Positions 1-48,077 of a DNA stretch of 48,077 bases are shown in pieces. Both the position numbers and the translations under genes were made by a program. The notes beneath the pieces were generated by a model that was not told where the DNA came from, searched no databases, and saw only the letters and a list, made by a program, of their open reading frames with translations. Origin of the DNA: a virus; the IMG/VR virus record IMGVR_UViG_3300028800_000018, positions 1 to 48,077 of that record, one strand, 5' to 3'. Position 1 is the stretch's first letter, and each line of letters starts with the position of its first letter.

Positions 1-127
1 AAGAGCCACGAGAGGGCGAACGGCAGCAGCGCGAGCGCGACGATCGCGACGGCGGTTACGAGCGGCTTGTCGGAGCTCTTCACGCGCGTTCATTTCGCAC
101 GGCGCGCGAGCACGCGATCGGCGGCGC
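1..127. repeat. Circular-closure overlap, left copy
   Basis: These 127 bases are identical to 47951-48077. The length equals a common assembler k-mer size, and genes read continuously through the junction, so this is best read as the closing overlap of a circular or circularly permuted genome rather than a biological terminal repeat. Confidence 0.95.
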
Positions 128-263
128 GAACGGCCGCGGTGCGAACGAATACCGACGGCTCGACGTTGCCGGCCGCCTTGACGATCCGCGCCTTCTCATC
201 GTCGGTTAGCCGGATCTGAAGCTGGACAGGTCTTCCAGGTCGGGCGGGTTCTAAGTTATTCAT
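90..263 (-). CDS. Ribbon-helix-helix-like DNA-binding protein, 57 aa
   Basis: The short protein starts MNNLEPARPGRPVQLQIRLT. A basic, Pro/Arg-rich N-terminus leads into a beta-strand-like VQLQIRLTDDEKARI segment and then a helix with EPSVFVRTAAVRAADRVL, the layout of Arc/MobC-type RHH repressors. No Shine-Dalgarno is visible; the ATG lies 7 nt after the -10 box of the promoter at 271-300, so the mRNA is probably leaderless. Its TGA overlaps the next reading frame across the genome junction. As the first gene of this early transcript it could be the regulator of the repeated early promoters; that role is inferred. Confidence 0.75.
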   Translation of the reverse strand: MNNLEPARPGRPVQLQIRLTDDEKARIVKAAGNVEPSVFVRTAAVRAADRVLARRAK

Positions 264-270
264 GCCGTCA

Positions 271-300
271 ATCGTACCCCGCCCGGCATACGCCTGTCAA
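271..300 (-). promoter_or_regulatory. Early promoter A
   Basis: On the minus strand TTGACA (295-300) is followed by an 18-bp spacer and TACGAT (271-276). The first 11 bases, TTGACAGGCGT, are identical to promoters B (1328-1357) and C (2781-2810). The expected start is about position 264, one base before the ATG of the RHH gene. A GGC-GTAT-GCC dyad lies just downstream of the -35. Confidence 0.7.
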
Positions 301-302
301 CC

Positions 303-337
303 AAAACGAAGACCCCCGCCGGCTTGTCGACGGGGGC
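303..337 (-). terminator. Intrinsic terminator after the 370-618 gene
   Basis: Arms CCCCCG (313-318) and CGGGGG (331-336) form a hairpin. Read on the minus strand it is followed by TCTTCGTTTT. It ends the transcript from promoter B just before promoter A restarts transcription. Confidence 0.7.
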
Positions 338-369
338 CTCGCCTTGGAGAACCATGCTGCGATGCCGGG

Positions 370-618
370 CTACGTTTCGCGCGCGCGGCCTCGCTCCTGC
401 GCCCTGCGCTCGGCCTCTTGCCCGGCCTCCCAACCGTCGCAGAAGACGTCGACGACGTGCACGAATTCAGCCTTGCAGAATCCGTCAAGGTTCGGGTAGC
501 GGCCGCGGATCGCGCGGTGCGCCCCGTCCTGGTAGAGCACGGCCGCGCGATCGTCCGTGAGCGCCTTGTAGCGCGCGACGGCGTCGAGCACGTCTTGGCG
601 ATCGGTCTTATGCGCCAT
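370..618 (-). CDS. Hypothetical early protein, 82 aa
   Basis: The start MAHKTDRQDVLDAVARYK overlaps the stop of the upstream gene as TAATG, implying translational coupling. The protein is mixed-charge and probably helical, with an acidic middle containing FVHVVDVFCDGWEAGQEAE and a very basic Arg-rich tail. No family is recognised. It is the last gene before the terminator at 303-337. Confidence 0.75.
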   Translation of the reverse strand: MAHKTDRQDVLDAVARYKALTDDRAAVLYQDGAHRAIRGRYPNLDGFCKAEFVHVVDVFCDGWEAGQEAERRAQERGRARET

Positions 619-989
619 TAGCCGTAGCGATAGAACCGGTCGTCGGCCGCGTTCTCGTCGTAGTCGTCGACGAGCGCGAGCGGATCGAGAGGAGGCTCGC
701 ACGCAAGGCATGCGGTCGCGAGCGAGACGCCGTGCTCGCACGTTTCGTAGGCGCGATGCCCCGCACAGTAACGCGCGCCTTCGCGCGGTTCCTCGCAAAT
801 GCCGAGCTCGTCGGCGTAGACGCAAACCGGCTTCGGCGCCGGCAACCCGCTTGCGATCCCTTGCACGCAGGTTTCGACGATTGAATCCAGCGCTGCGACG
901 TAGCGGTCGAGGAGCGCCGCGCCTGCGCGGTAGCGCTCCTCGTCGCGATCGGATAGCTCTTGCTCGGTGTCGGAAGGCCAGGCGCTCAC
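618..989 (-). CDS. Cysteine-rich hypothetical protein, 123 aa
   Basis: The GTG start (VSAWPSDTEQ) overlaps the upstream stop as GTGA; longer in-frame extensions are shadows of the ArdC-like gene. The N-terminal half looks helical. The C-terminal half carries about seven cysteines and two histidines (CVYADELGICEE, YCAGHRAYETCEHG, ATACLAC), consistent with zinc-binding knuckles. The very C-terminus is acidic. Function is unknown. Confidence 0.75.
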   Translation of the reverse strand: MSAWPSDTEQELSDRDEERYRAGAALLDRYVAALDSIVETCVQGIASGLPAPKPVCVYADELGICEEPREGARYCAGHRAYETCEHGVSLATACLACEPPLDPLALVDDYDENAADDRFYRYG

Positions 990-1273
990 GATGCGACCTC
1001 CTTCTGCGCGAGCTCTTCGGTTTGCGCGATATTGAAGACGACGTAGGCGCGCGGGCCCTTCTTGCGCTTCCCTGTGACCGGGTCCGGGCGACCCTCGACG
1101 ATCTTCAGGATATGCGTTCCGTGCTCGCCCTTGCGTACGCAACGGCCGATCGAAAGCGCCTGCTTGAAGGTGAGGAATTCCGGCGTCGGATATCCGAAGG
1201 AAACGGCGCTCAGAATCAAGGCGTTCTTGCCTGTGTACTCCGTGCGCGTGATTGCGTTGATAGGCTCGCTCAT
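986..1273 (-). CDS. ArdC N-terminal-domain-like antirestriction protein, 95 aa
   Basis: The protein matches the N-terminal ssDNA-binding domain of ArdC/DUF1738 proteins: the segments GKNALILSAVSFGYPTPEFL, LTFKQALSIG, VRKGEHGTHI and a C-terminal YVVFNIAQTEEL align with that family's usual order (Y-G-N-L, TFKQA, VRKGEKGT, FNVEQT). Full ArdC adds a metalloprotease domain that is absent here. Known family members protect incoming DNA from restriction, so an early anti-host role is inferred. It is the first gene behind promoter B, with a purine-rich leader. Confidence 0.8.
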   Translation of the reverse strand: MSEPINAITRTEYTGKNALILSAVSFGYPTPEFLTFKQALSIGRCVRKGEHGTHILKIVEGRPDPVTGKRKKGPRAYVVFNIAQTEELAQKEVAS

Positions 1274-1327
1274 TGAGGCTAAGTGCCCCTTCCTGCGGCT
1301 AAGTGCCGCGGCTAGTAACTAGGTATC

Positions 1328-1357
1328 TATGTATCACAGGCGCACGACGCCTGTCAA
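1328..1357 (-). promoter_or_regulatory. Early promoter B with palindromic operator
   Basis: TTGACA (1352-1357), an 18-bp spacer and TACATA (1328-1333) read leftward. A perfect inverted repeat ACAGGCG-TCGTG-CGCCTGT (1336-1354) fills the -35 and spacer, a natural repressor site. The TGA stop of the upstream gene lies inside TTGACA. The expected 48-nt leader (1274-1321) shares its sequence order with the leader of promoter C. Confidence 0.75.
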
Positions 1358-1854
1358 CCAGTAGCGTCTAAACTCTCCAGCGCCTTCGCTGCTTCGCGCC
1401 GGCGCGCCATGCGGATCGTGGCGGCCGCCGAGCACCAATAGCACGTTGCGCGCCCTTCGCGCGCCGGTTCCTTCGTGCATACGATGCAGGCGCCGTCGTC
1501 GCGCTTTGCGCGCTTGCGCGCCATGCGATCGCGCGACCCGGTCGTGCCGGGAACCGGCCGCAGAAAGTCCGCCTTGCGCGGCCGGCGCGCGCGTTTCATC
1601 CAGGCGACGAGCTCGTCGCCGTCGACGAACCCGAGCTCGCCGGCACGGTCGTCGACGTCGCCATAGCCTTCGCGCCGATCGGTGCGATCGAGGAAGCGCT
1701 TGGGGACGTCTTCGAATTCGCCACGCATGACAAGGCGGCCGCCTGTGACGGTAACATAGCCAGGGCGGATACCTTGCAGCGTGAGCGCATAGTTGACCGC
1801 ATGGTAGCGTTCGAGCTCGGTGCGATAGGCGTTCTCGTCGACGACGTAGCGCAT
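1354..1854 (-). CDS. Zinc-ribbon hypothetical protein, 166 aa
   Basis: The start MRYVVDENAYRTELERYHAV overlaps the upstream stop (TGATG). The N-terminal about 100 residues are mixed alpha/beta and unrecognised. A basic linker (RDRMARKRAKRDD) leads to a C-terminal zinc ribbon with CIVC and CYWC pairs about 13 residues apart, a small treble-clef type common in phage accessory proteins. The stop codon lies inside the -35 of promoter B, so this gene closes the promoter-C transcript. Confidence 0.75.
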   Translation of the reverse strand: MRYVVDENAYRTELERYHAVNYALTLQGIRPGYVTVTGGRLVMRGEFEDVPKRFLDRTDRREGYGDVDDRAGELGFVDGDELVAWMKRARRPRKADFLRPVPGTTGSRDRMARKRAKRDDGACIVCTKEPAREGRATCYWCSAAATIRMARRREAAKALESLDATG

Positions 1855-2216
1855 CAGGCGCCCTTCCGCCGGCACAGGTTACAGGTCGCGGGGTCGCGCG
1901 GCGCCGCATGGAACGTCGCGCCGCAGGTGACGCACGTTTGCAGGTCGCGAGCGAGCACGACGGCTCGCCCGGTCCGCACGCTCGCCGTGCACGCTTCTGC
2001 TTCGGTATCGTAGAACAGGGGCCGAACGTCGCTCGTGCTAGAGCGATCGTAGACGACGTCGATCGTCGCGTAGCCTGCGAGCTCGCTGCGGACCTGCGCG
2101 ACGTTGCGGCCGCCTTCGTAGGCGATGCGCTCGGCCGCGGCGTCGAACAGGGAGACGGCGGCCGCCTTCGCAGGCGCAGTCTCTAGCCGATCCGGATTCC
2201 CGAACAGGTCCGCCAT
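1854..2216 (-). CDS. Zinc-ribbon hypothetical protein, 120 aa
   Basis: The start MADLFGNPDRLETAPAK follows a strong GGAGGT ribosome-binding site and overlaps the upstream stop as TAATG. The C-terminus carries CVTC-GATFHAAPRDPATC-NLC, a four-cysteine zinc ribbon. The middle (residues 20-70) is predicted alpha/beta. No family is recognised; it is co-translated with its neighbours. Confidence 0.75.
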   Translation of the reverse strand: MADLFGNPDRLETAPAKAAAVSLFDAAAERIAYEGGRNVAQVRSELAGYATIDVVYDRSSTSDVRPLFYDTEAEACTASVRTGRAVVLARDLQTCVTCGATFHAAPRDPATCNLCRRKGA

Positions 2217-2368
2217 TAGGCATACCTCCCCGCGGCATTGAGGAGCGCAACCAGGCGCGCCTTCGCGGCGCAGACCGCGCGCCAATACTCCGGCTCCTGG
2301 GGAACGTCGCACAGGTTCTCGCAGGCTTCGCGAAGCGCCGCGCGCGCCGCTTCTAGCTTGGCGTTCAT
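2216..2368 (-). CDS. Small helical hypothetical protein, 50 aa
   Basis: A short ORF with two amphipathic helices (MNAKLEAARAALREACENL and EYWRAVCAAKARLVALLN) separated by a Pro turn. It overlaps the upstream membrane-protein stop (ATGA) and the downstream start (TAATG). Its third codon positions are almost all G or C, supporting real coding. No function assigned. Confidence 0.65.
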   Translation of the reverse strand: MNAKLEAARAALREACENLCDVPQEPEYWRAVCAAKARLVALLNAAGRYA

Positions 2369-2490
2369 AGCGCACCTGCTGCGGCCGCGAAGGCCACCGA
2401 AAGCGCGTGAGCGAGAAGCGCAACCCCCGCGCCTAAGACGGCCGAGAAGGCCAGAAGCGCGCAGGCTTCGATCATCGTTGACCCGCGCAT
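2365..2490 (-). CDS. Small single-pass membrane protein, 41 aa
   Basis: MRGSTMIEACALLAFSAVLG begins one long hydrophobic stretch (residues 8-38, Ala/Leu/Val-rich), a probable transmembrane helix. The start overlaps the upstream stop as TAATG and the stop overlaps the next start as ATGA. It may be an inner-membrane early protein; nothing more specific can be said. Confidence 0.6.
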   Translation of the reverse strand: MRGSTMIEACALLAFSAVLGAGVALLAHALSVAFAAAAGAL

Positions 2491-2726
2491 TAGCAGCAAC
2501 CCTGCCCTTCGGCGCAGGCGAAGAGCTCGTAGTCGCGCTCGCCGTTATAGGCGCCGCTCACGAACGAATCAGGGTGCGCCGCGAAGGCTTCGCTTGGCAG
2601 CGCGATCGCGGTGACGTCGCCGTCGACGATGCGCCGGCACCAGCCGCAGCGCGCGGGGCGATCGCCGGCGCAGGATTCGTTCCGCCGGTACTCTGCTTGC
2701 TCGGAGGCTATGGAGTCATCGTACAT
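2490..2726 (-). CDS. First early-operon protein, cysteine-rich, 78 aa
   Basis: The start MYDDSIASEQAEYRRNE is chosen over an upstream in-frame ATG because a GGAGAAGGG site precedes it and promoter C starts transcription inside the longer form. CGWC near residue 26 and a terminal C-x5-CC suggest a metal-binding knuckle. It is the first gene of the early transcript. Function unknown. Confidence 0.75.
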   Translation of the reverse strand: MYDDSIASEQAEYRRNESCAGDRPARCGWCRRIVDGDVTAIALPSEAFAAHPDSFVSGAYNGERDYELFACAEGQGCC

Positions 2727-2780
2727 AAGGCTTCTGCCCTTCTCCCGGCTACGTGCCAGGGTTACTGTGACGTGAGAGCA

Positions 2781-2810
2781 ACGGTAACATGGCGGGGTGA
2801 CGCCTGTCAA
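2781..2810 (-). promoter_or_regulatory. Early promoter C
   Basis: TTGACA (2805-2810), 18 bp, then TACCGT (2781-2786). TTGACAGGCGTC matches promoter B over 12 bases. A diverged inverted repeat (ACAGGCG ... CGCCATGT) follows the -35. The predicted leader is 48 nt, the same length as for promoter B, and carries GGCACGTAGCC upstream of the purine-rich ribosome-binding site. Confidence 0.7.
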
Positions 2811-2851
2811 CTAGGGAGCCAAAACTTTCCGCTCTGCCGTATGGCGGGGTC

Positions 2852-2880
2852 TTGCACCTGCGCGCGCAAGGGCGCAAAAT
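2852..2880 (+). promoter_or_regulatory. Candidate promoter for the structured RNA
   Basis: TTGCAC (2852-2857), a 17-bp spacer and CAAAAT (2875-2880) predict a start near 2886-2887, exactly at the first hairpin. The -35 is a weak match; the call depends on its spacing and the terminator downstream. Confidence 0.45.
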
Positions 2881-2885
2881 GCGAA

Positions 2886-2985
2886 GGCCACCCGGTTTAG
2901 AGGTGGCCTCCAAAAGGTCGGTTCCGGCGACCTCGCTCGTAGCCTATCACGAACGAGACCGCCGCCGCAAGAAAGGCGGTTTTTT
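2886..2985 (+). ncRNA. Candidate structured small RNA, about 100 nt
   Basis: Four hairpins follow one another: AGGCCACC/GGTGGCCT (2885-2909, 8 bp), AGGTCG/CGACCT (2915-2933, 6 bp), CTCGCTCGT/ACGAACGAG (2932-2957, 8 of 9 pairs) and ACCGCC/GGCGGT (2958-2980), the last followed by TTTTTT. No plus-strand gene lies upstream for this terminator to serve, and a promoter-like sequence sits at 2852-2880. It lies opposite and just upstream of the early operon. It may regulate early transcription or a host target. It could instead be an attenuator or leader for the ORF at 3023. Confidence 0.5.
2958..2985 (+). terminator. Intrinsic terminator of the candidate RNA
   Basis: A 6-bp GC-rich stem ACCGCC/GGCGGT with an 11-nt loop is followed by six T residues (2980-2985), a textbook rho-independent terminator on the plus strand. 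Confidence 0.75.
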
Positions 2986-3022
2986 GCTTCTCGCTCCTCG
3001 CGCCCGGATCGCCAAGCGTGCC

Positions 3023-3178
3023 GTGCCGATCGAAACGATCGCACCGAGCACCGGCACCGCCGCGCGTACCGCCTGCCCCCGCTGCGCCAAAACCCTCGTC
3101 GCTCGCCGTCGCAAGGACGGCCGGGCCTTCTTGGGCTGTCCGGCGTTCCCGCGGTGCAAAGGAGCACGGTCGATCTAA
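3023..3178 (+). CDS. Topoisomerase-type zinc-finger ORF, start uncertain
   Basis: The last 35 residues read CPRCAKTLVARRRKDG then FLGCPAFPRC, the four-cysteine pattern of the zinc-finger repeats at the C-terminus of bacterial topoisomerase I. In-frame ATGs at 2852 and 2879 would put the terminator hairpin inside the gene, so I place the start after it, at GTG 3023 (51 aa), without a clear ribosome-binding site. It may be a small nucleic-acid-binding protein or a fragment of a larger ancestor. Confidence 0.5.
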   Translation: MPIETIAPSTGTAARTACPRCAKTLVARRRKDGRAFLGCPAFPRCKGARSI

Positions 3179-3754
3179 ACTCCTTGCACCCTTTAACCGA
3201 GCGACAGGCGCGACGCGAAGTAGCGCGCAACGGCCGGCTAGGGCCAAGGTCACGAGCACCGGCGAGGCCAGAGTACCGCCAGGAACGTGCCGCAAGAACG
3301 TAGCGAGAGCAACACCCTCGCGCGCGCAATTAGACTATCCTTGTCCCTGTTCGAGCGCAGCGAGGAGGCCGCAGGCCGCACAGTAGCGCACCAAACGCAC
3401 ACCCTCTCCAGACCGTGCGCGCAGACAACCGCACACCAGCGCGCGATACGGGGACGCTCGCTACCAACCAACCAGCCCGCCATCAGGTTCGCACCGCAAA
3501 CGCGCGCGAAACGAGCACGAAACGAGCGCAAACGTCACAGTACCAGCGGCTCGACGCTTCGATCGGCGCGCAGGCGGGCGCGCGGGCGCGGGTTGGGCGG
3601 GGCGGGTCCCCCCGCGCATGGGGGCGCGCGCGAATTTTCGGGAGGTTAGCTGCCCATTCGCGCGTTGCGGGTGGTAGGGTGAAGGGGAAGCCGCCTGCGC
3701 CTGCGGACTACCAGGAGTCGGGCGGCTTCGACGCAGGGCGAGGAGGGATAGGGT
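3179..3754. other. Non-coding divergent control region with strand-composition switch
   Basis: I find no convincing gene. From about 3280 to 3540 the plus strand is rich in A and C (for example CCAACCAACCAGCCCGCCAT), with CGAAACGAGC repeated at 3507-3516 and 3518-3527 and related CGCAAACG units. From about 3570 it becomes G/T-rich (GGGTTGGGCGGGGCGGGT). A CCCCC-GCGCAT-GGGGG hairpin lies near 3607-3622. Divergent transcription plus a skew switch suits an origin or promoter complex. Confidence 0.5.
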
Positions 3755-4045
3755 ATGGCTGGACCGAGCGATAGGGATGGTGCGAAGCTGCTGCCGGACA
3801 CGGCGTTTGCCGAGGTGATCTTGGCTGGTCGTCGTGCGGTGGCCGCGCATCGTGCGTCGTTAGGGCTGGAGACGACGAAGTGGACCGGGGTTGGTGTTGG
3901 GCAGGGGTTTCGTGTTGAGGTAGCGCCGGCGTATCCGATGAAGCGTGCGAAGCGTGCTGGTGGCGTGAGGGGTCGGAAGGCGGCGAAGGCGTTCCGTCGG
4001 TTGTGGCGGTCGGCGCACGGCGCCGGGGTTGAGGCGACCGAATAG
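3755..4045 (+). CDS. First late-arm protein, basic, 96 aa
   Basis: An AGGAGG site 8 bases upstream supports the ATG. The protein is basic, with a C-terminal RKAAKAFRRLWRSAHG helix that could bind nucleic acid. Codon use is unusual for this genome: third positions favour G and T (GGT, CGT, GTT) instead of C/G, continuing the G/T skew of the adjacent non-coding region. No family is recognised. Confidence 0.65.
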   Translation: MAGPSDRDGAKLLPDTAFAEVILAGRRAVAAHRASLGLETTKWTGVGVGQGFRVEVAPAYPMKRAKRAGGVRGRKAAKAFRRLWRSAHGAGVEATE

Positions 4046-4074
4046 GGAATAGAGCCTAGCAGGAGGGTCCTAGC

Positions 4075-4269
4075 ATGCACCTGCTGATCGCGTTCCTCGT
4101 CTTCCTGCTGGTCCTGGTGGTGGCGTGTGCCATCGTCATCTTCATCTTGCAGAACCTCGCGCCGACGCTGCCGTGGGCACGGAACCTCGTGCTGGCGGTC
4201 GGTGGGCTGATCCTACTGATTTGGCTGATCGCGCATTACGCCGAGATCATCGGCGCCTTGCACGGCTAA
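4075..4269 (+). CDS. Small two-helix membrane protein (Thivi_2564-like or holin-like), 64 aa
   Basis: MHLLIAFLVFLLVLVVACAI starts a first transmembrane helix (2-27). A short polar loop (NLAPTLPWAR) is followed by a second helix (NLVLAVGGLILLIWLIAHY, 38-56). This order resembles the short Thivi_2564-type membrane proteins. A holin-like role is possible, but its position at the beginning of the arm is unusual for one. Its 3' end overlaps the convergent gene at 4213-4365 by 57 bp. Confidence 0.65.
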   Translation: MHLLIAFLVFLLVLVVACAIVIFILQNLAPTLPWARNLVLAVGGLILLIWLIAHYAEIIGALHG

Positions 4270-4365
4270 CGCTTCGGCCATGACCTCGAAGACGTCGCGG
4301 CCCCTTGGGTTGCCGACGGCGGTGAAGTAGGCGTCGTAGAGGCGCTGGGCTTGCGGCGTTCTCAT
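4213..4365 (-). CDS. Hypothetical protein of the embedded minus-strand pair, 50 aa
   Basis: MRTPQAQRLYDAYFTAVGNP starts with ATGA overlap onto the upstream gene. Third positions are GC-rich for the first about 35 codons, then the frame runs antisense under the membrane gene at 4075-4269. The pattern AQRLYDAYFTAVG...VFEVMAEALA is helical. Function unknown. Confidence 0.6.
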   Translation of the reverse strand: MRTPQAQRLYDAYFTAVGNPRGRDVFEVMAEALAVQGADDLGVMRDQPNQ

Positions 4366-4568
4366 TCGCCGCTCGGGACGTCGGCGGGGATGACGGACGA
4401 CCAGCCGGTGACGGTCAGTTCCATGCAGCCCGTCTCGGGGTTGTAGCGAGAGTCGAACCGCGCCGGCGCCACCTTCAGATACCAGTCGTACGGCAGGATG
4501 AGCCACTCGTCGCGCGGGACGAGCTTGTCGCCGATGACGTCGTAGCGCGTGCCGATCTCGTCGGTCAT
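4362..4568 (-). CDS. Hypothetical protein of the embedded minus-strand pair, 68 aa
   Basis: MTDEIGTRYDVIGDKLVPRD starts a compact, mostly beta-looking protein (LILPYDWYLKVAP, MELTVTGWSSVIPADV). Nearly every codon ends in G or C, so it is coding on the minus strand although it lies in the plus-strand arm. It shares a 45-bp divergent interval with the gene at 4613. No family is recognised. Confidence 0.7.
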   Translation of the reverse strand: MTDEIGTRYDVIGDKLVPRDEWLILPYDWYLKVAPARFDSRYNPETGCMELTVTGWSSVIPADVPSGE

Positions 4569-4612
4569 GCGGCGGCGCTTCGTGCTGAAGGAAGACTCTC
4601 CCGCTCCGCCGT

Positions 4613-5002
4613 ATGGCGGTCAGCGTGCCCGACGCCCGGCCGACACGGAATCGCAAGCTGCACCATAGGCGGCAGCTCAACGTGTGGGTCCCCCCCGCGC
4701 TCAAGCGCGACGTGAAGAAACTGGCGGCCGCCGAGAGCCTGCCGATCTCCCGATTCTGTTGTGGACTCCTGCGCCTTGGAATCGGGCGCTACTTTGAGTT
4801 GGCCGACGAGCGGATGGCCGCGCCGTTGCGCGCCGCTATGCGCGACGCCTTTGGCGAGGACGAGTGGTTGCCGCGTCGGCCGCCGGCGCAGCCTCGCCGG
4901 CCGCCGCCCTGGCCGGTCAATCCGGAACGCCGCCGTCTGAACCAAGAGTTCAACGAAGCTATCGAGGAAGGGAAACGCCGCTTTGAAACCGCTCGCCGGT
5001 AA
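4613..5002 (+). CDS. Ribbon-helix-helix-like protein, 129 aa
   Basis: Residues 22-60 (QLNVWVPPALKRDVKKLA then ISRFCCGLLRLGIGRYFE) have the strand-helix-helix order of RHH DNA-binding domains. A Pro/Arg-rich linker and a charged C-terminal helix follow. It is the first of three RHH-like genes around the two co-chaperonin-like genes, and overlaps the next by 20 bp. It may regulate the divergent pair at 4213-4568. Confidence 0.65.
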   Translation: MAVSVPDARPTRNRKLHHRRQLNVWVPPALKRDVKKLAAAESLPISRFCCGLLRLGIGRYFELADERMAAPLRAAMRDAFGEDEWLPRRPPAQPRRPPPWPVNPERRRLNQEFNEAIEEGKRRFETARR

Positions 5003-5381
5003 CGTCCTGGTCGCCCCCGCCAAGGGCGCCTACACCCAGGAGACGCCCGACCCGACCGGGCTGGTCGCCGCCACCGGCGGTCGGCTGGTCGACGGGTCGA
5101 AGATCCTCCGGCCCGAGACGGAGATCGCGACCAAGCCCTCCGAGGGGATCGTCCGCGCGATCGGTCGCGACGTGACGCTCGATATCGCCGAGGGCGACCG
5201 CGTGCTCTACCGGTCGTGGACCGGCATCGAGTGCCGCATCCAGACGGCCGGGCAAGACGAGTGGGTCGACCATCAGTTGACGCCGCAGCGCGATATCCTG
5301 GCGATCGTCGAGCCGGGCGAGCGTATCGAAGTCATTTCTCGGCCGATGCCGGCGCCGCAGCAGAAACGCCCCTTTGGATAG
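4983..5381 (+). CDS. GroES-like co-chaperonin 1, 132 aa
   Basis: The core matches Cpn10: KPLAGNVLVAP at the N-terminus, then KPSEGIVRAIGRDVTLDIAE, GDRVLYRSWTG and QRDILAIVE, corresponding to GroES beta-strands, the GD.V turn and the DILAIVE end. A mobile-loop-like insertion (residues 14-46, YTQETPDPTG...) precedes the core and a Pro-rich tail follows. The start is TTG, inside the end of the upstream gene. Phage co-chaperonins such as T4 gp31 help host GroEL fold the capsid protein. No GroEL-like gene is present here. Confidence 0.75.
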   Translation: MKPLAGNVLVAPAKGAYTQETPDPTGLVAATGGRLVDGSKILRPETEIATKPSEGIVRAIGRDVTLDIAEGDRVLYRSWTGIECRIQTAGQDEWVDHQLTPQRDILAIVEPGERIEVISRPMPAPQQKRPFG

Positions 5382-5649
5382 TACCGCGGCCGAGGAGCGC
5401 CCGCGGAACAACCGCCGCAGCGAGCTCCTGCCGCACAACTGTCACTTTTCGCCGAACACGATCGAAGTGCTCAAGCTGCACGACACCTTCACCGACAGCG
5501 GCGGCGTGAGCGCGCTCGTGCGAACGGTCATCGAGTTCTACCTGGCCGACGCCGTCAACTTTGCCGATCCGCGGTTCCGCGACGTCACGCCGATCATTCG
5601 GCCGCGCGAGCGCTACCGCGGCCACCATAAGAAGCTCGGCCTGGTATGA
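5374..5649 (+). CDS. Small RHH-like hypothetical protein, 91 aa
   Basis: TTG start overlapping the upstream stop by 8 bp. The middle (FSPNTIEVLKLHDTFTDSGG, VSALVRTVIEFYLADAV) resembles a strand-helix-helix DNA-binding unit. A basic C-terminal tail (RERYRGHHKKLG) could contact DNA or RNA. It ends in ATGA overlap with the next gene. Confidence 0.6.
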   Translation: MDSTAAEERPRNNRRSELLPHNCHFSPNTIEVLKLHDTFTDSGGVSALVRTVIEFYLADAVNFADPRFRDVTPIIRPRERYRGHHKKLGLV

Positions 5650-6167
5650 ACGACGACGTCACCCCCGAACCGGCGACAGCGGAGGATGTAGCAAAACCGG
5701 TAGCGCCGGCCCCGAAGAAGATCGTGCGCCGCGGCCGCCTCTCCCCGCCCGAGACGCAGACGTTCGAACGGCGCCTCGAGCTCACGAAGGCCGCCGCGCG
5801 CAAGCTCGCGCGCGAAGCCAAGACGAAGCTGCCGTTGCGCCTGGGCGTCTCGCTCGAGCTTCACGAAGCGCTCGTCGCGATCGCCGAGAAGATCGGCGCC
5901 TCGAAGGTTCCGGACGTCGCCGTGCGCGCGATGGAGATAGGCGCGCAGCAGTGGGCGAGCACGCTGAAGATCCGCGCCGACGGTATGACGCCGCTCACGG
6001 TCTTCGAGCGCACGCCGGCCGCGGCGAACGCCCGCGACTACGGCGGTCCGGGCGAGCAGCGCATCCGCGATGAGATCGCCGAGCAAGCGCGCCAGCGCGC
6101 CGAAGAGCACGCACAGCAAGCCGAGAAGCTCCATGTGCCAGGGCGACGTCGTGCTGCCGCTCTCTGA
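5646..6167 (+). CDS. RHH-like protein with coiled-coil tail, 173 aa
   Basis: ATGA overlap with the upstream gene fixes the start. After a low-complexity Pro/Lys N-terminus, residues 60-100 (LPLRLGVSLELHEALVAIAE, KVPDVAVRAMEIGAQQW) have an RHH-like layout. The C-terminus is a charged, probably coiled-coil helix (DEIAEQARQRAEEHAQQAEK). Its end overlaps the second co-chaperonin-like gene by 35 bp. Confidence 0.6.
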   Translation: MNDDVTPEPATAEDVAKPVAPAPKKIVRRGRLSPPETQTFERRLELTKAAARKLAREAKTKLPLRLGVSLELHEALVAIAEKIGASKVPDVAVRAMEIGAQQWASTLKIRADGMTPLTVFERTPAAANARDYGGPGEQRIRDEIAEQARQRAEEHAQQAEKLHVPGRRRAAAL

Positions 6168-6561
6168 TCTACGGTCGGCCCTGGCCGATTGCGCGCGCGA
6201 AGTGCGATGGACGCCCGCGCACGCCGGCGCGATCCTCTGCGTGCCGCTCACCGACGAAGGCACGTCCGGCGGCGTCACCGTGCCGGGCTACAAGCAGCGG
6301 CACAAGTTTCAGGGGCTCGTCGTCGCGGTCAACAAGACGAAGGACGTCGTCGTCGGCGACCTCATCAACTTCGATATGGGCCGCGGCGAGGAGATCCGCA
6401 CGTACGCCGGTGAGACGTACTTTCACGTCACCGAAGACAACGCGAGCGGCATAGACGAGGAGTTCCGCGCCAAGCTCGAGGCGGCCGAAGCCGCCGCCGC
6501 GGCGCCGAAAGAACAGCAACTTGCCTCCGGCCTTTGGATTGCGACCGATGCACCCGCTTGA
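6133..6561 (+). CDS. GroES-like co-chaperonin 2, 142 aa
   Basis: MCQGDVVLPLSDL is preferred as start, inside the upstream gene's end. Residues 34-100 follow the Cpn10 order: AGAILCVPLTDE, a TSGGVTVPGYKQ mobile-loop-like segment, FQGLVVAVNKTKDVVVGDLI and YAGETYFHVTEDN. An Ala/Glu-rich tail follows. It diverges strongly from the first copy at 4983, so the two may serve different substrates or one may be a regulator. The fold assignment is by motif only. Confidence 0.6.
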   Translation: MCQGDVVLPLSDLRSALADCAREVRWTPAHAGAILCVPLTDEGTSGGVTVPGYKQRHKFQGLVVAVNKTKDVVVGDLINFDMGRGEEIRTYAGETYFHVTEDNASGIDEEFRAKLEAAEAAAAAPKEQQLASGLWIATDAPA

Positions 6562-6799
6562 TAAGCAGATGGCCGTCATCGTCTCGCGCCAGGAGCTCTG
6601 CCGGCGAATCAACGCGCTTCCGGAGAACGCCGAGATCATCGTCGTCCACAACGTCCGCACGATCACGGACGGTCGCCCGGACGACCAGGGCGGCGTCGAC
6701 GTCGTCGGGATTCACCCGGCGGTTCTGAACGAGCGCACGTCCTGGCTGCTCCATTCGGTCATCGCCTTTCTCTTCTCGGGGGTATACAAGCGTGAGTAG
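6548..6799 (+). CDS. Hypothetical protein, 83 aa
   Basis: MHPLDKQMAVIVSRQELCRR is the likely start, overlapping the upstream stop; MAVIVS at 6569 is an alternative. The first two thirds are alpha/beta (AEIIVVHNVRTITDG). A C-terminal hydrophobic segment (TSWLLHSVIAFLFSGVY) may be membrane-associated. No family is recognised. Confidence 0.6.
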   Translation: MHPLDKQMAVIVSRQELCRRINALPENAEIIVVHNVRTITDGRPDDQGGVDVVGIHPAVLNERTSWLLHSVIAFLFSGVYKRE

Positions 6800-7001
6800 A
6801 TCATCACTCGGCAACGAGCTCGTCGAGACGCGCTGCGTCTTCTGCGGATCGCAGGTCGGCCGGCCAGGCGGCTGCGCCAATGGGCGCCACTGTCATTTCT
6901 GCCGCACGGACGAAATGCGCGCGGCCGACCCGTGCATCCCCGGCCGCGACCACCATTGGGTTCGCGGCCACGAGTTCCAGCGGATTCCGGTGCAACCGTG
7001 A
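6792..7001 (+). CDS. Zinc-binding hypothetical protein, 69 aa
   Basis: GTG start overlapping the upstream stop. CVFC (residues 15-18), C28 and HCHFC (33-37) make a zinc-ribbon-like cluster, followed by a His-rich DHHWVRGHEF segment. The next gene starts at its stop (GTGA). A small nucleic-acid- or protein-binding zinc protein is the best guess. Confidence 0.65.
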   Translation: MSRSSLGNELVETRCVFCGSQVGRPGGCANGRHCHFCRTDEMRAADPCIPGRDHHWVRGHEFQRIPVQP

Positions 7002-7558
7002 ACACGCCTAACGAAATCCGCCACGTCGTCATAGAGACAATCCCGCACAACCTGCAACGGTACGATACGGTCGGCGACTATTTCTACGGGACCGGCGCCG
7101 AAGCGGGCCAACTCGAAATGAAGGTCTCCGATATGGGGGACTGGCGGTTCGGGATGGCCTGCGCCGTGCACGAGCTCGTCGAGGCGTCGCTCCTGGTCGT
7201 CGACCGTGTGAGCGAGGGCGACGTCTCAGCCTTCGACGAGGCATACGAGGCCGCGCGCCAAGAGACGCTCAAGTATCGAGGAAAGCACGCCCCGATTGGC
7301 GGCGACGTGCAGGCGTACCGCGACCGATACGAGTGCCAGTGCGTCATCGACGACGCGAGCGAACCGGGCGAAGACCGCCATGCCCCCTACCGCAAGCAGC
7401 ACGCGGTCGCCGACGCGATCGAACGAACCTTCGCGGCGGCGCTAGGCATCGTCTGGAAGGACTACGAAGAGAAGGTCGTCTCGATGGTATGGCGCGGCGG
7501 CCACGACCCCTACGGGGAGAACGGAGAAGCATCAGAAGATGCCGACGACCAAGGGTAA
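6998..7558 (+). CDS. Hypothetical protein, 186 aa
   Basis: GTG start (VNTPNEIRHVVIETIPHNLQ) overlapping the upstream stop as GTGA. The sequence VGDYFYG, WRFGMACAVHELVEASLL and the C-terminal HAVADAIERTFAAALGIVWKDYE suggests an alpha/beta protein with conserved-looking acidic and His residues (HELVE, 67-71 region), conceivably metal-binding. Similar short proteins occur in phage genomes as domains of unknown function. Role not assigned. Confidence 0.65.
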   Translation: MNTPNEIRHVVIETIPHNLQRYDTVGDYFYGTGAEAGQLEMKVSDMGDWRFGMACAVHELVEASLLVVDRVSEGDVSAFDEAYEAARQETLKYRGKHAPIGGDVQAYRDRYECQCVIDDASEPGEDRHAPYRKQHAVADAIERTFAAALGIVWKDYEEKVVSMVWRGGHDPYGENGEASEDADDQG

Positions 7559-7823
7559 GAAGCCACGATTCACCGCCAAGGATGATCGCCAGGCGTCGCA
7601 CGTCGCGAAGGCGATGAAGAAGCGCGGCCTGACGGCGAAGGAAGCCAAGTCCGTCGGCTACGCGACCGTCAACAAACAGAAGAGCGCGCGCAAGAAAACG
7701 TCTCGCAAGAAGACGTCGGCAAAGAAGGGCGCGAAGTTCTCAGCCGCCGCCACCGCGCGCAACCGCGAAGGCAAACCGGACAAGGCGCCGATGCGCCGCA
7801 AACGTAACAAGGGCCGCTCTTAG
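7539..7823 (+). CDS. Lysine-rich basic protein, 94 aa
   Basis: Extremely basic (MPTTKGKKPRFTAKDDRQAS, then repeated RKKTSRKKTSAKK), histone H1-like in composition. Overlaps the upstream gene by 20 bp. It is the first of four small basic proteins in the late arm (also 10298, 10508, 18425); binding to packaged or host DNA is a plausible role but is inferred from charge only. Confidence 0.7.
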   Translation: MPTTKGKKPRFTAKDDRQASHVAKAMKKRGLTAKEAKSVGYATVNKQKSARKKTSRKKTSAKKGAKFSAAATARNREGKPDKAPMRRKRNKGRS

Positions 7824-7844
7824 CGGCAGAAAGAGAGACCGCTC

Positions 7845-8183
7845 ATGGATCGACGTTTCGGTGGGGGCCAGGCGGTTCCCGACGTCAACGCGCTCGCAGC
7901 GCAGAACAAAGTCATCGAGGCGCAGAAGGAGCTTGCCGCGATGCAAGTCGCGCAGCAGACACGCGACAAGAAAGTGCAAAACGCGATCAACCTTATTCTC
8001 TTGCCGTTGCAGACGCCTGACGGCGTCGTGCGCCAGGACCCCGAGAAGACGCCCGAGTCGATCAGCGCGCGCGCGGCAGCGTACAAGTTCCTCGAAGGGT
8101 ATTTCAGTACGACGACCGATCTGGAAGCCGGCATCCCGGTTCGCGAGTTGACGGCGATCGACTCACCGGTTCTCACGGCCTAG
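7845..8183 (+). CDS. Hypothetical protein upstream of the terminase, 112 aa
   Basis: Starts MDRRFGGGQAVPDVNALAAQ after an AGAGAGACC site. Residues 12-50 form a Gln/Lys-rich helix (NKVIEAQKELAAMQVAQQTR) and the C-terminal half is alpha-helical with SISARAAAYKFLEGYF. Its place two genes before the large terminase makes it a candidate small terminase subunit, but no HTH is evident. Confidence 0.6.
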   Translation: MDRRFGGGQAVPDVNALAAQNKVIEAQKELAAMQVAQQTRDKKVQNAINLILLPLQTPDGVVRQDPEKTPESISARAAAYKFLEGYFSTTTDLEAGIPVRELTAIDSPVLTA

Positions 8184-8187
8184 CGCG

Positions 8188-8454
8188 ATGGCTCGGTTTT
8201 TCATACGACGCAATCATCCGTACGCGGGCATGGTGACGCTCAGTAAGATTCCGGGCGGCAGTTTCGTCGCGAAGGAAATGATCGTATCGGAAGCCGAGTT
8301 CATCGCCGCAACCGTCAAGTACATGCGGACACTGTCGCCGGCGGAGAAAAAGGATCTTCGCCGCGCGACGCCCGTTGACGATGGACCGCCGCCGCCACCG
8401 AGCAACGGCGACAAGAAGTTTCGCGTCGCTAGAGTAGCAAGCGCAGCGACCTAG
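8188..8454 (+). CDS. Hypothetical protein adjoining the terminase, 88 aa
   Basis: MARFFIRRNHPYAGMVTLSK opens a small basic protein with a helical middle (VSEAEFIAATVKYMRTLSPA) and a Pro-rich linker (DDGPPPPPSNGDKK). Its TAG overlaps the terminase GTG. It could be part of the packaging complex; no motif proves it. Confidence 0.6.
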   Translation: MARFFIRRNHPYAGMVTLSKIPGGSFVAKEMIVSEAEFIAATVKYMRTLSPAEKKDLRRATPVDDGPPPPPSNGDKKFRVARVASAAT

Positions 8455-10253
8455 TGCCTCGCGGCCCGCGCGCGGCCGCGCAACCGCGGCCCGAGCTCGA
8501 CGAGCAGCAGATCCGCCAAGCGGAGTACATGCTCCGCGACACCTTCACGTTCTGGCAAGAGACGGATACCTGGCCGTGCTATGAAGAGCCGCACCGTGAA
8601 ATGTTCGGCATCCTCGATGAGTCCGGTCCGGACATGTCTCACGAGCGATCCAAGCCGACGTCCACCATGTTTCTCGGGCCTCGGTTCTCGTACAAAACGT
8701 ACGGCGCCGCTAAGTCGATCGCGCGGCGCGTCATCAAGTATCCGGATATCTCGATCGGCATATTCCGGTCGACGCGAGACGAAGCGCGCAAGCTCATGCG
8801 CCTCGTCAAAAACATTCTACGAAGCCAGCCGGTCGTGCAGTATTTCGGCGATCCGTATTTCGGCGCGCAGGCGTGGAACGAAGATGAAGTCGTCGTCCCG
8901 TGGCGCACGGTCAACCGCGCGGACCCGACGCTCTTCACGATGGGCACGAGCGGCACGTCGACCGGTAATCACCCCGACTACATTTACGGCGACGACCTTG
9001 TAACCGAAGTCAACGCAGACTCCCCAAAAGAGCAAGAGAATCTCTGGAGCTACATCGAGGCGTTCCAGCCGCAGCTTCCGTCGTGGGGCGGCCTGCTGCT
9101 CACCGGCACGCGCTGGTCGTCGATCGACTGTTACGGCCGCGTCATCGCGCTTAACGAAGCCGCGCAGCGCGCCGGTAAAGACGTAGAGCAACTGCCCTGG
9201 AAAGTCATCATTCGCCAGGCGGATGAAGAGCTCGCCGACGGATCGCGCAAACTCTACTTTCCGGCCTACCTTACCGAAGAGCGTATCGCCGATCTCAAGC
9301 TCATGGTCGAGGCGCGCCGCTTCAATGCGTGGATGTATAACCGGATGGTCGATCCGGCCGACAAGCCGTTCAAGCCCGAGCACATCCACCTTTTTAACGG
9401 ACCGTATCGCTTCGACTATCCGTACAAGCGTACGATCCAGTTGCTCGACCAGCAGTTCGCCGGCGAGAAGGTGCGCCTGTACGTCGCCATGATCGTCGAC
9501 CCGGCGCTCACCGACGAAGTCGGCTCGTGCGGGTACGGCCTGACCGTCATCGGGTGGGATCGCAAGCGACGCTGGTTTGTGCTCGAGTCGCGCGAGCGCG
9601 TGCTCCTCCCCTCGCGCGCCGAGTCTATTATTACCGAAATGCTCCTGCGATACCGGCCGAACCGCATGCTGATCGAATCGGCCGGCGGCGACGCCGGGCT
9701 CATCGCCGCGATCGGTGCCTTCATCGAACGCGAGCACCTCGACTGTATCATCCAGCCGTTCTCGGCGCTCCAGCACGAGAAGTTCGGCAAACGCTCGAAG
9801 GACCAGCGGATTCGGGAAATGGAGCGGATCGTTTCGGCCGACGACGTCTACTTTCGCGTGGCCGACGACCCGAAGCGGTCCGAGCTCTTCGGCGGTTACT
9901 GTTACGACCTGCTCAAGCAGATCGACCACTGGCCGTCCCTCACGCGCAACGACGCGATCGACTCCTGGGCGATGGGCCGGTACGTGCTCCCGTACGTCCC
10001 GACCGACGAGGGCGAGTACGAAGACGACCTCTCGACGGCCAACCCGGCCGAATGGGATATCTCATGGAAGGACTCTGCCGGGATCTCGCACGGTCTGCCG
10101 GCGGAGAAGGCCGCGGCCCTGGCCCTTGGGCCGCCGCCCGGCGCCGACGCCGCGCGCTGGCTCGAGTCGCTCGAGTACGGAACGCCGCGACCGGGGTACA
10201 GGCCCGGAGCGCGCACGGCCGAATACTTGCGGAGCCGACGCCGCACGGGGTAA
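8454..10253 (+). CDS. terL: Terminase large subunit, 599 aa
   Basis: This is the packaging ATPase-nuclease that drives DNA into the prohead through the portal. GTG start, overlapping the previous stop. A degenerate Walker A is visible at residues 74-82 (LGPRFSYKT), Walker B at 175-183 (DYIYGDDLV), a coupling-type TGTRWS at 217-222, then an RNase H-like nuclease with D349 (IVDPALTDE), E408 (LIESAGGD) and a late acidic residue in RNDAIDSWAMG. The layout and length fit T7-like terminases, usually about 590 aa. Its neighbours (portal, scaffold, capsid) confirm the module. Confidence 0.92.
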   Translation: MPRGPRAAAQPRPELDEQQIRQAEYMLRDTFTFWQETDTWPCYEEPHREMFGILDESGPDMSHERSKPTSTMFLGPRFSYKTYGAAKSIARRVIKYPDISIGIFRSTRDEARKLMRLVKNILRSQPVVQYFGDPYFGAQAWNEDEVVVPWRTVNRADPTLFTMGTSGTSTGNHPDYIYGDDLVTEVNADSPKEQENLWSYIEAFQPQLPSWGGLLLTGTRWSSIDCYGRVIALNEAAQRAGKDVEQLPWKVIIRQADEELADGSRKLYFPAYLTEERIADLKLMVEARRFNAWMYNRMVDPADKPFKPEHIHLFNGPYRFDYPYKRTIQLLDQQFAGEKVRLYVAMIVDPALTDEVGSCGYGLTVIGWDRKRRWFVLESRERVLLPSRAESIITEMLLRYRPNRMLIESAGGDAGLIAAIGAFIEREHLDCIIQPFSALQHEKFGKRSKDQRIREMERIVSADDVYFRVADDPKRSELFGGYCYDLLKQIDHWPSLTRNDAIDSWAMGRYVLPYVPTDEGEYEDDLSTANPAEWDISWKDSAGISHGLPAEKAAALALGPPPGADAARWLESLEYGTPRPGYRPGARTAEYLRSRRRTG

Positions 10254-10297
10254 CATGAGGGCGCCAGGTACACGTTTCAGCCGAAAAGGAGGGCGCC

Positions 10298-10507
10298 GTG
10301 CCCGCTAACGTCTCTCAAAAGGCCGCCGCAAGGGTGAATACCGTCCAGTCGGTACAGAAATCCCTCGGTATCCAGGGTCCGAAGGGACTCCCCGGCAGCG
10401 GCGCCGGGCGCCAAACGCTTCCGGAAAGCCTCGGCCTCGGTCGCACCGGCAAGCGGACCGCGACGAAGGTCGGCCGCAATCACCTGCGCGACTCGATGGG
10501 CCTGTAG
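10298..10507 (+). CDS. Small basic protein, 69 aa
   Basis: GTG start behind a strong AAAAGGAGG site. The protein is basic and low in acidic residues (MPANVSQKAAARVNTVQSVQ, then GRTGKRTATKVGRN). Gly/Pro turns in the middle suggest disorder. It lies between terminase and portal, next to another basic protein, and may bind DNA. Confidence 0.65.
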   Translation: MPANVSQKAAARVNTVQSVQKSLGIQGPKGLPGSGAGRQTLPESLGLGRTGKRTATKVGRNHLRDSMGL

Positions 10508-10759
10508 ATGGCGACGAAGATCACGCAGAAGCCGAAAGTCACCCGCAAGAGCCCGGCCAAGGCCAAGAAGATCGGCGGCGGACCCAAGAGCGCGCCGCAC
10601 GTGCACGGCCTCGCGCGCCAGGAGAAGAAGACCGCCGGGACCAGCGGCGGGCACGGAACCGTGCAGCTTCCCAAAGGCGTGCCGGTCGTCGAATACAAAG
10701 GCGAAGGCAAGGGGAAGGGCTTCGGACCCGGCGTTAAGGTAGTCGGCGCGCGCGGCTAA
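10508..10759 (+). CDS. Small Lys/Gly-rich basic protein, 83 aa
   Basis: Starts immediately after the preceding stop. Lys-rich N-terminus (MATKITQKPKVTRKSPAKAK) and a Gly/Lys-rich C-terminus (YKGEGKGKGFGPGVK) are consistent with a disordered DNA-binding protein. It forms a pair with the gene at 10298. Confidence 0.65.
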   Translation: MATKITQKPKVTRKSPAKAKKIGGGPKSAPHVHGLARQEKKTAGTSGGHGTVQLPKGVPVVEYKGEGKGKGFGPGVKVVGARG

Positions 10760-10765
10760 AGCCGC

Positions 10766-10945
10766 ATGACGGCCGAAGAGTTTGAGCGCCGTTACGCCGA
10801 GCGAAGCGGTTTAACGGTAGATAGGCTTCGCGAACTCGGGCGAGTAGTCGCGCCTTGCGATTGCGGAGACGCGATCTGCGAAGGGTGGATTTCAACTCGC
10901 CAGGAGTGGGTCGACGACGATGCCGCGATGAGGCGACGTGCCTAG
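10766..10945 (+). CDS. Small cysteine-cluster protein, 59 aa
   Basis: A short gene (MTAEEFERRYAERSGLTVDR) with a helical N-terminus and a C-D-C-G-x4-C-E-G-W knuckle at residues 31-41, a pattern seen in small zinc-binding phage proteins. Its TAG lies 5 bases inside the portal gene's GTG start, so the two are coupled. Confidence 0.65.
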   Translation: MTAEEFERRYAERSGLTVDRLRELGRVVAPCDCGDAICEGWISTRQEWVDDDAAMRRRA

Positions 10946-13034
10946 AAAAAAGCGCTTAGTTAGGCAATTAACTCGCTCTCCGCGCAGTCAGGTCATCCGC
11001 GACGCCGGCGCCGGGCAGCTCTCGAAAGAGCAGTGGCCGATCGTTGCCTCCGATGCGTGGCAATCCATCATTTCCGCGATCGGTACGCGCGCCGCGCTCG
11101 AGGCCAACCTTCGTACCGCCTACGCGCTCTACGAACGCGACAACCGCGACGAGGGAATCGAAGACGACCCCTACGTCGACTCGAGCGATCTCACGATCCC
11201 CCTCGTCTTCTCCAAGCTGCGCCGGCAGAAGATCGACGTCTCGAGCCTGACGTTCGTCCCGGATTTCTACCTCTTCACCGGCCAGGACGAAGAATCGCTT
11301 GCCAACGCGAGCGACATGCAAACGCGCTGGAATTCCGATTTCAACCGCCTGCGCGGGCCGTATCCGTCGTGGAAGAAGTCGCACGACAGCCTCTTGCACA
11401 AGTCGCTGCGCGACGGCACCTCGGTCATGGAGTGCTCCTGGGTCAAGGACGAGCGGCTCCAGCGCTACAAGGTCGAGACCCCCGTCACCGATGACGATGG
11501 TGTCCCGATCGTCGACGAAGAGAGCGGCGAAGTCCAAACCAAGCCGGAGTACGTCACGATGCCCGTCACCGTGTACGACGGCGTCGTGCTCAATCCGTGC
11601 CTTCTCAAAGACGTCTTGCTCATGCCCAACGAGGCGCAGAGCGTCGAGACGGCCGCCGCGGTTGCGATCTACCACCTGTACTACGAGAGCGACCTGCGCG
11701 CGATGGTCGAAGACGGCATCCTCGACGAAGAGTGGGTGAACCGCGCGCTCGAGTACGACCCGCAAGGGTACTCCGATATCGCCTCGCGCTTCCAGGGCGT
11801 CTACAACTGGACGGCCGGCGGCCAGATCGACGTCGGCGTCGGACAAGGCCAAGGAATCGCCGCCGAGCAGTTCGTCAACCGCGGGCCGCTCGGCGTGTGG
11901 GTCGTCTACACGCGCCAGTACGATTTCGACGGCGACAAAATCGAAGAGCCGAACATCCTCTTCATTCACGAAGTCTCGGGCTACATGATCGGGCACTGCC
12001 CCGATACCGATATGGCGCCGATGCGGTTGATTATCTCCTTCGCGCCGTACCCGCGCCCGGACTCGCCGTACGGATTCGGCGTGCCCGAGCTCATCGGACC
12101 GTTCCAAGCCGAAGCGACGTTGCAGTGGAACCAGCGAAACGACGCCGTCTCGACGCGCCTGGAAGTGCCGCTCCTGACCGATACGAACATCGAGATCAAA
12201 GACTCGAATATGTCGTGGGGCAACGGGCGCGTATGGTGGGTCAAGGGGAACGCAACGCAAGGCTCACTGCAAAATGTTCTGTGGTATCCGCAGCTTCCAG
12301 AGGTTCCGCTCGCGAGCTACCAGCAGGAGAGCCAGGTTCGCAGCGATGCGGACTCGGTTCTCGGTGGATCGTCGCAGCCGAGCACGAGCCGCGAGAGCGC
12401 GGCCGGCGTCAAGACGCGATCGGCGGACGCCGATATGGGCACGAACGATATCGCGATGGAGCTCCGCTACGTCTCGCATCAGATATTCGATGCGATTTGG
12501 AGCCTGACGCTTCAGTACGGGTTCAACGCCGACGGCACCGAGCGCAACCCGCCGCCGGGTGCCAAGCCGCTCACGAAGCAAATGATGCAGCTTCCCTACA
12601 AGCGCAGTATCGCCGGGGAAGACGATCCGCTCGACAAGCAGGCGCAACTCGAGGAAATGCTCGGGTTCTACAAGACGTTCGCAGAGTCGCCGTTCATCCA
12701 GGGCGATCTCATGCACCGGTACAATTTCGAGCGTGCGGTCGCGAGCAAGTTCGGTATCGGCGGGCTCGACGGCATGTGGGGCACGCCGGATGAAGTAATG
12801 AAGATGAAGCAGGCGCAGGAGCAAGAGGGCGCAGAGAAGGCCAAGATGGAGAAGCAGATGGGTACTGCGAAGATCCTGCAAATGCTCAACCGCGGCCGAG
12901 GCGGCACGTCGGGCAACCCGCTCCTCGATGCGATTCCGCCGGACTTTGGCGAAGATCCGCAGCAACAGCAAGGGCAACAGCCGGGCGCGCAGCCGTCACA
13001 GAACGGCGCGGCGGCCGCAGCGGGGGCAGGATGA
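10938..13034 (+). CDS. Portal (head-tail connector) protein, 698 aa
   Basis: Position directly after the terminase, length about 700 aa and the overall pattern mark it as the dodecameric portal through which DNA enters and leaves the head. Visible are an N-terminal helical wing (residues 40-130), SWKKSHDSLLHKSLRDGTSV, a long beta-rich stem region, PYGFGVPELIGPFQAEATLQ preceding the crown, and a Gln/Gly-rich disordered C-terminus (PQQQQGQQPGAQPSQ). It has a GTG start. Family assignment is by synteny and architecture; no catalytic motif exists in portals. Confidence 0.85.
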   Translation: MPRKKRLVRQLTRSPRSQVIRDAGAGQLSKEQWPIVASDAWQSIISAIGTRAALEANLRTAYALYERDNRDEGIEDDPYVDSSDLTIPLVFSKLRRQKIDVSSLTFVPDFYLFTGQDEESLANASDMQTRWNSDFNRLRGPYPSWKKSHDSLLHKSLRDGTSVMECSWVKDERLQRYKVETPVTDDDGVPIVDEESGEVQTKPEYVTMPVTVYDGVVLNPCLLKDVLLMPNEAQSVETAAAVAIYHLYYESDLRAMVEDGILDEEWVNRALEYDPQGYSDIASRFQGVYNWTAGGQIDVGVGQGQGIAAEQFVNRGPLGVWVVYTRQYDFDGDKIEEPNILFIHEVSGYMIGHCPDTDMAPMRLIISFAPYPRPDSPYGFGVPELIGPFQAEATLQWNQRNDAVSTRLEVPLLTDTNIEIKDSNMSWGNGRVWWVKGNATQGSLQNVLWYPQLPEVPLASYQQESQVRSDADSVLGGSSQPSTSRESAAGVKTRSADADMGTNDIAMELRYVSHQIFDAIWSLTLQYGFNADGTERNPPPGAKPLTKQMMQLPYKRSIAGEDDPLDKQAQLEEMLGFYKTFAESPFIQGDLMHRYNFERAVASKFGIGGLDGMWGTPDEVMKMKQAQEQEGAEKAKMEKQMGTAKILQMLNRGRGGTSGNPLLDAIPPDFGEDPQQQQGQQPGAQPSQNGAAAAAGAG

Positions 13035-40568: not shown

Positions 40569-40612
40569 CTGGACCCTTGGGTCGCCGGCATGCCGATCAC
40601 GGTGAGCTTCAC
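40565..40612 (-). pseudogene. RusA-like resolvase N-terminal remnant, 15 codons
   Basis: The frame VKLTVIGMPATQGSR has a GTG start overlapping the upstream stop as GTGA, and ends in ATGA overlap at the HNH start. RusA Holliday-junction resolvases of phages commonly begin with a strand followed by V-x-G-x-P-A-P-Q-G-S-K-R; the match is short but in place. The catalytic rest of RusA is not seen downstream of the HNH gene. Interpreted as a gene truncated by HNH insertion or replacement. Confidence 0.4.
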
Positions 40613-47932: not shown

Positions 47933-48033
47933 CGCACCCCCACGGCGCTCAAGAGCCACGAGAGGGCGAACGGCAGCAGCGCGAGCGCGACGATCGCGAC
48001 GGCGGTTACGAGCGGCTTGTCGGAGCTCTTCAC
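47929..48033 (-). CDS. Small single-pass membrane protein across the junction, 34 aa
   Basis: GTG start (VKSSDKPLVTAVAIVALALL) followed by one transmembrane helix (residues 8-30). Nearly all codons end in G or C, unlike the overlapping Arg-rich frame from the ATG at 48043, so this frame is favoured. In circular order it lies directly behind the RHH gene (90-263). Its start also appears at 81-83 in the left copy. Confidence 0.55.
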   Translation of the reverse strand: MKSSDKPLVTAVAIVALALLPFALSWLLSAVGVR

Positions 48034-48077
48034 GCGCGTTCATTTCGCACGGCGCGCGAGCACGCGATCGGCGGCGC
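47951..48077. repeat. Circular-closure overlap, right copy
   Basis: Identical to 1-127; see that entry. Genes on the minus strand run from 1-263 into this end without interruption. Confidence 0.95.

Follow-up and report, generated by a model that had tools for sequence, protein, structure and literature searches.

The early region of an uncultured phage (IMGVR_UViG_3300028800_000018, positions 1 to 48,077; this whole 48,077-base stretch is called the window) contains three leftward promoter sites that share an identical 11-bp core, and its relatives carry, at promoters in the same places, a different shared element in each phage. We consider it probable that these sites are sigma-70-type promoters at conserved places and that one phage-encoded protein, most likely an autoregulating RHH-like protein, blocks all of them through a phage-specific operator, with a second control layer in the leaders of two of the units. 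The proposed early regulon is testable and comes from a phage group for which the reference phage collection gave no close match. Its operators keep their positions and are a clear example of sequences changing together from phage to phage, and the leader element, found only in this group, is a candidate for a compact RNA switch.

Three leftward promoter sites share an 11-bp core

The initial annotation proposed three iterated early promoters, and all three sites are present on the minus strand at the positions given (Table 1). Across the 48,077-base record there are exactly three copies of the pattern TTGACAGGCGT-N13-TAC, each intergenic and leftward, against 0 in simulated sequences; the 11-mer TTGACAGGCGT itself occurs three times, against a simulated mean of 0.02 and a maximum of 1 (first-order Markov). 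The spacer is 18 bp at all three promoters. Judged by a sigma-70 criterion (TTGACA, 16–18 bp spacer, TANNNT), promoters A and C are full matches and promoter B has one −10 mismatch. Beyond the −35 hexamer, GGCGT is identical and at the same offset in A, B, and C. Outside the 11-bp core, the identity between sites is at background (9–15 of 40 positions upstream, 10–17 of 40 downstream).

Table 1. Promoters, leaders, and early genes of the window
Feature	Position	Strand	Description
RHH-like protein, 57 aa	90–263	−	first gene of unit A; candidate regulator
Promoter A	271–300	−	TTGACAGGCGT..., −10 TACGAT; 7 nt to the ATG of the RHH gene
Intrinsic-terminator-like hairpin with T-run	309–340	−	directly upstream of promoter A, between A and unit B
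First gene of unit B, 95 aa	986–1273	−	stand-alone ArdC N-terminal domain, anti-restriction; Pfam ArdcN 5e-13, phrog_7245 7.9e-11
Leader RNA of B	1275–1309	−	hairpin 1 GCGGC-ACTTA-GCCGC (1295–1309), SD AGGAAGG (1288–1294), hairpin 2 GGGGC-ACTTA-GCCTC (1275–1289), then A-ATG
Promoter B (P1 position)	1328–1357	−	TTGACAGGCGT..., −10 TACATA; synteny with L016 P1
Perfect dyad ACAGGCG-N5-CGCCTGT	1336–1354		overlaps −35 and spacer of promoter B
First gene of unit C, 78 aa	2490–2726	−	Cys-rich protein; no family match
Leader RNA of C	2727–2760	−	hairpin 1 CCTGGC-ACGTA-GCCGGG (2744–2760), SD AGAAGG (2738–2743), hairpin 2 AGGGC-AGAA-GCCTT (2727–2740), directly before ATG
Promoter C (P2 position)	2781–2810	−	TTGACAGGCGT..., −10 TACCGT; synteny with L016 and L019 P2

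The perfect palindrome reported at promoter B was confirmed. Chance alone would give about three perfect 7-N5-7 dyads, whatever their sequence, in 48 kb; this one carries weight because the shared core forms its arm. Diverged versions of this palindrome had also been claimed for A and C and were not established, the second arm being weak and the spacing different; half-sites inspected there by eye gave weak matches at varying spacing and were judged no better than chance.

Genome map and gene content

An exact 127-base repeat lies at both ends of the window (1–127 and 47951–48077), and on this basis the window is probably a complete circular map. The repeat itself is probably an assembly overlap of that map, because the complete relative G005 (48.5 kb) likewise has an exact 127-base end repeat. 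Rightward genes, which include the terminase and capsid genes, extend from about 3.8 to 38.7 kb. Leftward genes start at 2.8 kb, continue across the junction, and reach about 38.7 kb; they encode small proteins, the RHH-like protein, a nuclease-like protein, and RecT.

No DNA match between positions 1–12000 and any reference phage was found, and the terminase is only about 20–27% identical to those of reference phages among the matches listed. Relatives are present in IMG/VR: the capsid protein (16076–17065, plus strand) is 98% identical across them, with DNA identity of about 82%. One of these capsid relatives (L030) is on a contig binned into a Candidatus Eremiobacterota genome, a possible host lead for the phage group. 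Several small early proteins encoded at 370–2726 (minus strand) have Cys-x-x-Cys motifs typical of zinc ribbons, their family matches being unconvincing. The ArdC N-terminal domain of unit B stands without the peptidase-like part, and a protein encoded at 39639–40643 (minus strand) combines a D5-like regulator match with an HNH endonuclease match.

Syntenic promoters carry a different shared element in each phage

Relatives were chosen by the same gene order, giving a comparison set of four independent phages including the window: L016 lies within G005, L036 is 99.8% identical to L015, L019 ends short of its RHH gene, and no P2 was recognised in L015. Relatives sharing the ArdC domain were rejected as comparison genomes, their arrangement being different and not syntenic, and a search for nuclease relatives as additional markers gave G005 only. 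The early order in L016 (P2, three genes, P1, one gene, terminator, the RHH gene with its promoter, nuclease, RecT) is the same as in the window, and the L016 gene after P1 is homologous to the end of the window gene at 618–989. By gene order, promoter A corresponds to the RHH-gene promoter, B to P1, and C to P2. A motif search of related phages had been suggested as a check on the initial annotation, and its answer was divided: the literal motif TTGACAGGCGT was found in none of the relatives, but promoters are kept at the syntenic places in L015, L016, and L019. These are of the TTGAC- or TTGCGC-type, with −10 hexamers such as TACAAT, TATTCT, and TATGCT. Upstream of the RHH-gene promoter, L015 and L016 also have a hairpin with a T-run comparable to that of the window.

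Instead of the window core, the relatives have shared elements of their own. The 48.5 kb of G005 contain ATAC-N5-AGCATAC three times, exactly and only at its three promoters, just as the window has its three exact cores, so that the same operator-like sequence recurs at several early promoters in each. It is in promoter orientation at P1 and reversed at P2 and the RHH promoter, and because it is present in both orientations the match cannot be a promoter consensus. L019 has GTGG-N8-GTGGTAC only at its two promoters, P1 and P2, and L036 has TAC-N5-AG-N2-TAC three times, two in the RHH promoter and one at P1; these patterns were read from the same promoters in which they were later counted. Over the seven promoters of the relatives, a direct-repeat period of 12 bp scored 45, with the next best at 34 (16 lags, 5–20), and was matched in 0 of 5000 shuffles; this 12-bp geometry was sought in the window's own promoters and is not there. 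Similarity between promoters is higher within a phage than after re-pairing of phages: 8 of 864 re-pairings reached the observed mean, and masking of the −35 raised this to 34 of 864, in a set of four independent phages only.

The proposal of a phage-specific early regulon with a single regulator is thereby upheld in part, through the syntenic promoters, the different shared element in each phage, and the re-pairing test. Together these sequence comparisons support one phage-specific regulator for all three sites. Operator and regulator would change together between phages, and each phage would therefore have its own shared tag.

An RHH-like protein is the candidate regulator

Unit A begins with the gene of the 57-aa RHH-like protein in the window and also in L015 and L016. 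Its Pfam matches are weak and below the cut-off (NikA-like, E 0.0046, 17.5 bits against a cut-off of 27; TacA1, E 0.015, 15.7 bits against 21), and comparison with PutA RHH structures gave E values of 0.77–0.84. An AlphaFold model had low confidence (pLDDT 61.5) and contained two helices, with the strand not assigned. The protein is 40% identical to the syntenic proteins of L015 and L016, and its predicted strand reads VQLQIRL, compared with NIVSVRL in the relatives, a difference that would be consistent with an altered DNA specificity. The operator-like repeats of L015 and L016 extend over the −10 and start codon of the RHH gene. The RHH protein is the best, and the most likely, candidate for the regulator.

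We propose that the three sites act as sigma-70-type promoters, each at the head of one early, leftward transcription unit. P2 (C) and P1 (B) would drive the small early, anti-restriction, and Cys-rich genes, and promoter A would drive the RHH gene and then lead into the nuclease and RecT recombination genes. A single phage DNA-binding protein, most likely the RHH protein, would bind a phage-specific operator overlapping each promoter; as it accumulates, RNA polymerase would be blocked at its own and at the two other early promoters. The RHH protein would be made from unit A and would therefore be autoregulating.

The shared regulator could also be something other than the RHH protein, either another early protein or a host factor, or it could act as an activator instead of a repressor. 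We regard this as a possible, less favoured reading. The RHH assignment is weak by sequence, and several other small early proteins have Cys-rich, possibly zinc-binding, motifs; on the other hand, the RHH gene heads unit A, and the repeats over its −10 and start codon in L015 and L016 match the arrangement of an autoregulated gene. With a host factor, the differences in element from phage to phage would go unexplained, and the overlap with −35 and −10 favours repression over activation.

It is unlikely that the three sites are plain strong host sigma-70 promoters with no shared regulator, in which GGCGT recurs by chance or through a host promoter preference. Their TTGACA −35 and TAnnnT-like −10 hexamers do fit sigma-70, and the relatives' promoters stand at the same places without TTGACAGGCGT. 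However, such promoters leave the threefold identity of GGCGT at one offset unaccounted for, and the relatives carry other shared elements instead, which in L016 lie in opposite orientations to the promoter.

Twin hairpins flank the Shine-Dalgarno sequence in the B and C leaders

In unit A, only 7 nt separate the −10 from the ATG in the window, L015, and L016, with no recognisable Shine-Dalgarno sequence (SD); its mRNA thus reads as essentially leaderless, a conserved feature that corrects the initial annotation. The equal leader length described for B and C holds, the distance between −10 and ATG being 54 nt in each, which corresponds to about 48 nt counted from +1. The leader sequence said to be common to B and C is indeed shared, but it forms a two-hairpin RNA element around the SD and is not part of the DNA operator. 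The twin hairpins flank and partly cover the SD in both leaders.

This element was found in seven distinct leaders from four phages, and the same loop pattern occurs at no other site in the loci scanned. Hairpin 1 has 5–6 bp and a loop of ACNTA or AGTA; the SD between the hairpins is A-G-(A/G)-A-G-G or AGGAAGG; and hairpin 2 has 4–5 bp and a loop of AGNA or ACTTA, with the start codon 0–4 nt further on. Both hairpins are in the minimum-energy structure in six of the seven leaders. Pairs were counted on hand-cut arms, with no covariance model, because the 4- and 5-nt loops were displaced by automatic alignment. For hairpin 1, pairing is complete (35 of 35), changes at four of the five positions preserve it, and 0 of 20,000 shuffles were as good; hairpin 2 has one compensatory position, and 601 of 20,000 shuffles were as good. 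A role of the leader as a DNA operator was rejected: four of the five stem pairs vary yet remain paired, and the loops are constrained. Such compensatory substitutions in the stems fit an RNA element.

A structure-only scan recovered the leader of C, the relatives' leaders (including the L036 copy of that of L015), and one other kind of site, which lies inside a late gene of two relatives; control sequence gave 0.17 per 48 kb. The leader of B was missed because of its longer SD. No Rfam 15 match was obtained at E ≤ 1 for window positions 1–4200, and the exact leader patterns, searched in 2.9 million viral contigs, occur in this group only, apart from chance matches without hairpin 1. As far as such comparisons reach, the twin-hairpin leader is a previously undescribed putative RNA element found only in this phage group. 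In the B and C mRNAs, the tandem hairpins could hide part of the SD and so act as a second control layer. More tentatively, the leader may be a new phage RNA control in which a phage protein reads the C-A(G/C)N1-2A-G loops flanking the SD and stops translation of the P1 and P2 messages, which would place the early regulon under DNA control, through the phage-specific operator, and RNA control together.

Simple duplication of strong promoters may also be considered as a source of the sites. Recent copying of a promoter-leader cassette, by duplication or gene conversion, rather than selection by a regulator, is quite improbable as the cause of their similarity: B and C do have leader elements in common, and in all relatives the leaders of P1 and P2 resemble paralogues of each other, but identity ends at the 11-bp core with background on both sides, A has no leader element, and the leader duplication is old, since P1 and P2 types are distinguishable across relatives, whereas the DNA tag is phage-specific.

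Comparison with known regulatory systems

The proposed working mode resembles a small repressor-operator regulon. Arc and Mnt of P22 and the plasmid omega repressor are small RHH-type proteins that use short half-sites in direct or inverted repeats overlapping promoters. The system proposed here would be similar in its small RHH-like candidate protein, short half-site repeats, and promoter overlap, with weak family support for the window protein; neither the half-site sequence nor the 12-bp spacing seen in the relatives is that of those systems. As for the leaders, the MS2 coat hairpin is a single hairpin with a bulged A. The window leaders would share with MS2 and T4 RegA a control at the ribosome-binding site of phage genes, but differ from both in consisting of two G+C-rich hairpins with A..A loops that bracket the SD, on which no RNA-binding protein is known to act. 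The sites of T4 RegA are unstructured and A+U-rich (PMC3014915).

For operators that diverge along with the repressor, the nearest documented case is that of the Cluster A mycobacteriophages, which, as proposed here, have several copies of a phage-specific operator for one phage repressor, with repressor and site diverging together between syntenic phages; their sites are 13 bp, and a genome can have up to 30 stoperators (PMC6550527). By comparison, the window has three sites only, all at promoters, and its candidate regulator is RHH-like. No integrase or immunity function was recognised in the window. A stoperator system, with numerous genome-wide sites, was considered and rejected, the record having three full-core sites.

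A conserved stretch divergent from promoter C

Divergent from promoter C lies a conserved stretch (2845–2990, plus strand; L016:4915–5075; L019:2065–2225) with a rightward promoter-like site, the motif GCGAA...CC...CAAAAGGTCG, and several hairpins. In the window it ends in an intrinsic terminator, and it is a candidate small RNA. Its fold z was −5.7 in L019, −2.2 in the window, and −1.4 in L016, and in L016 its first hairpin also reads as a leftward terminator.
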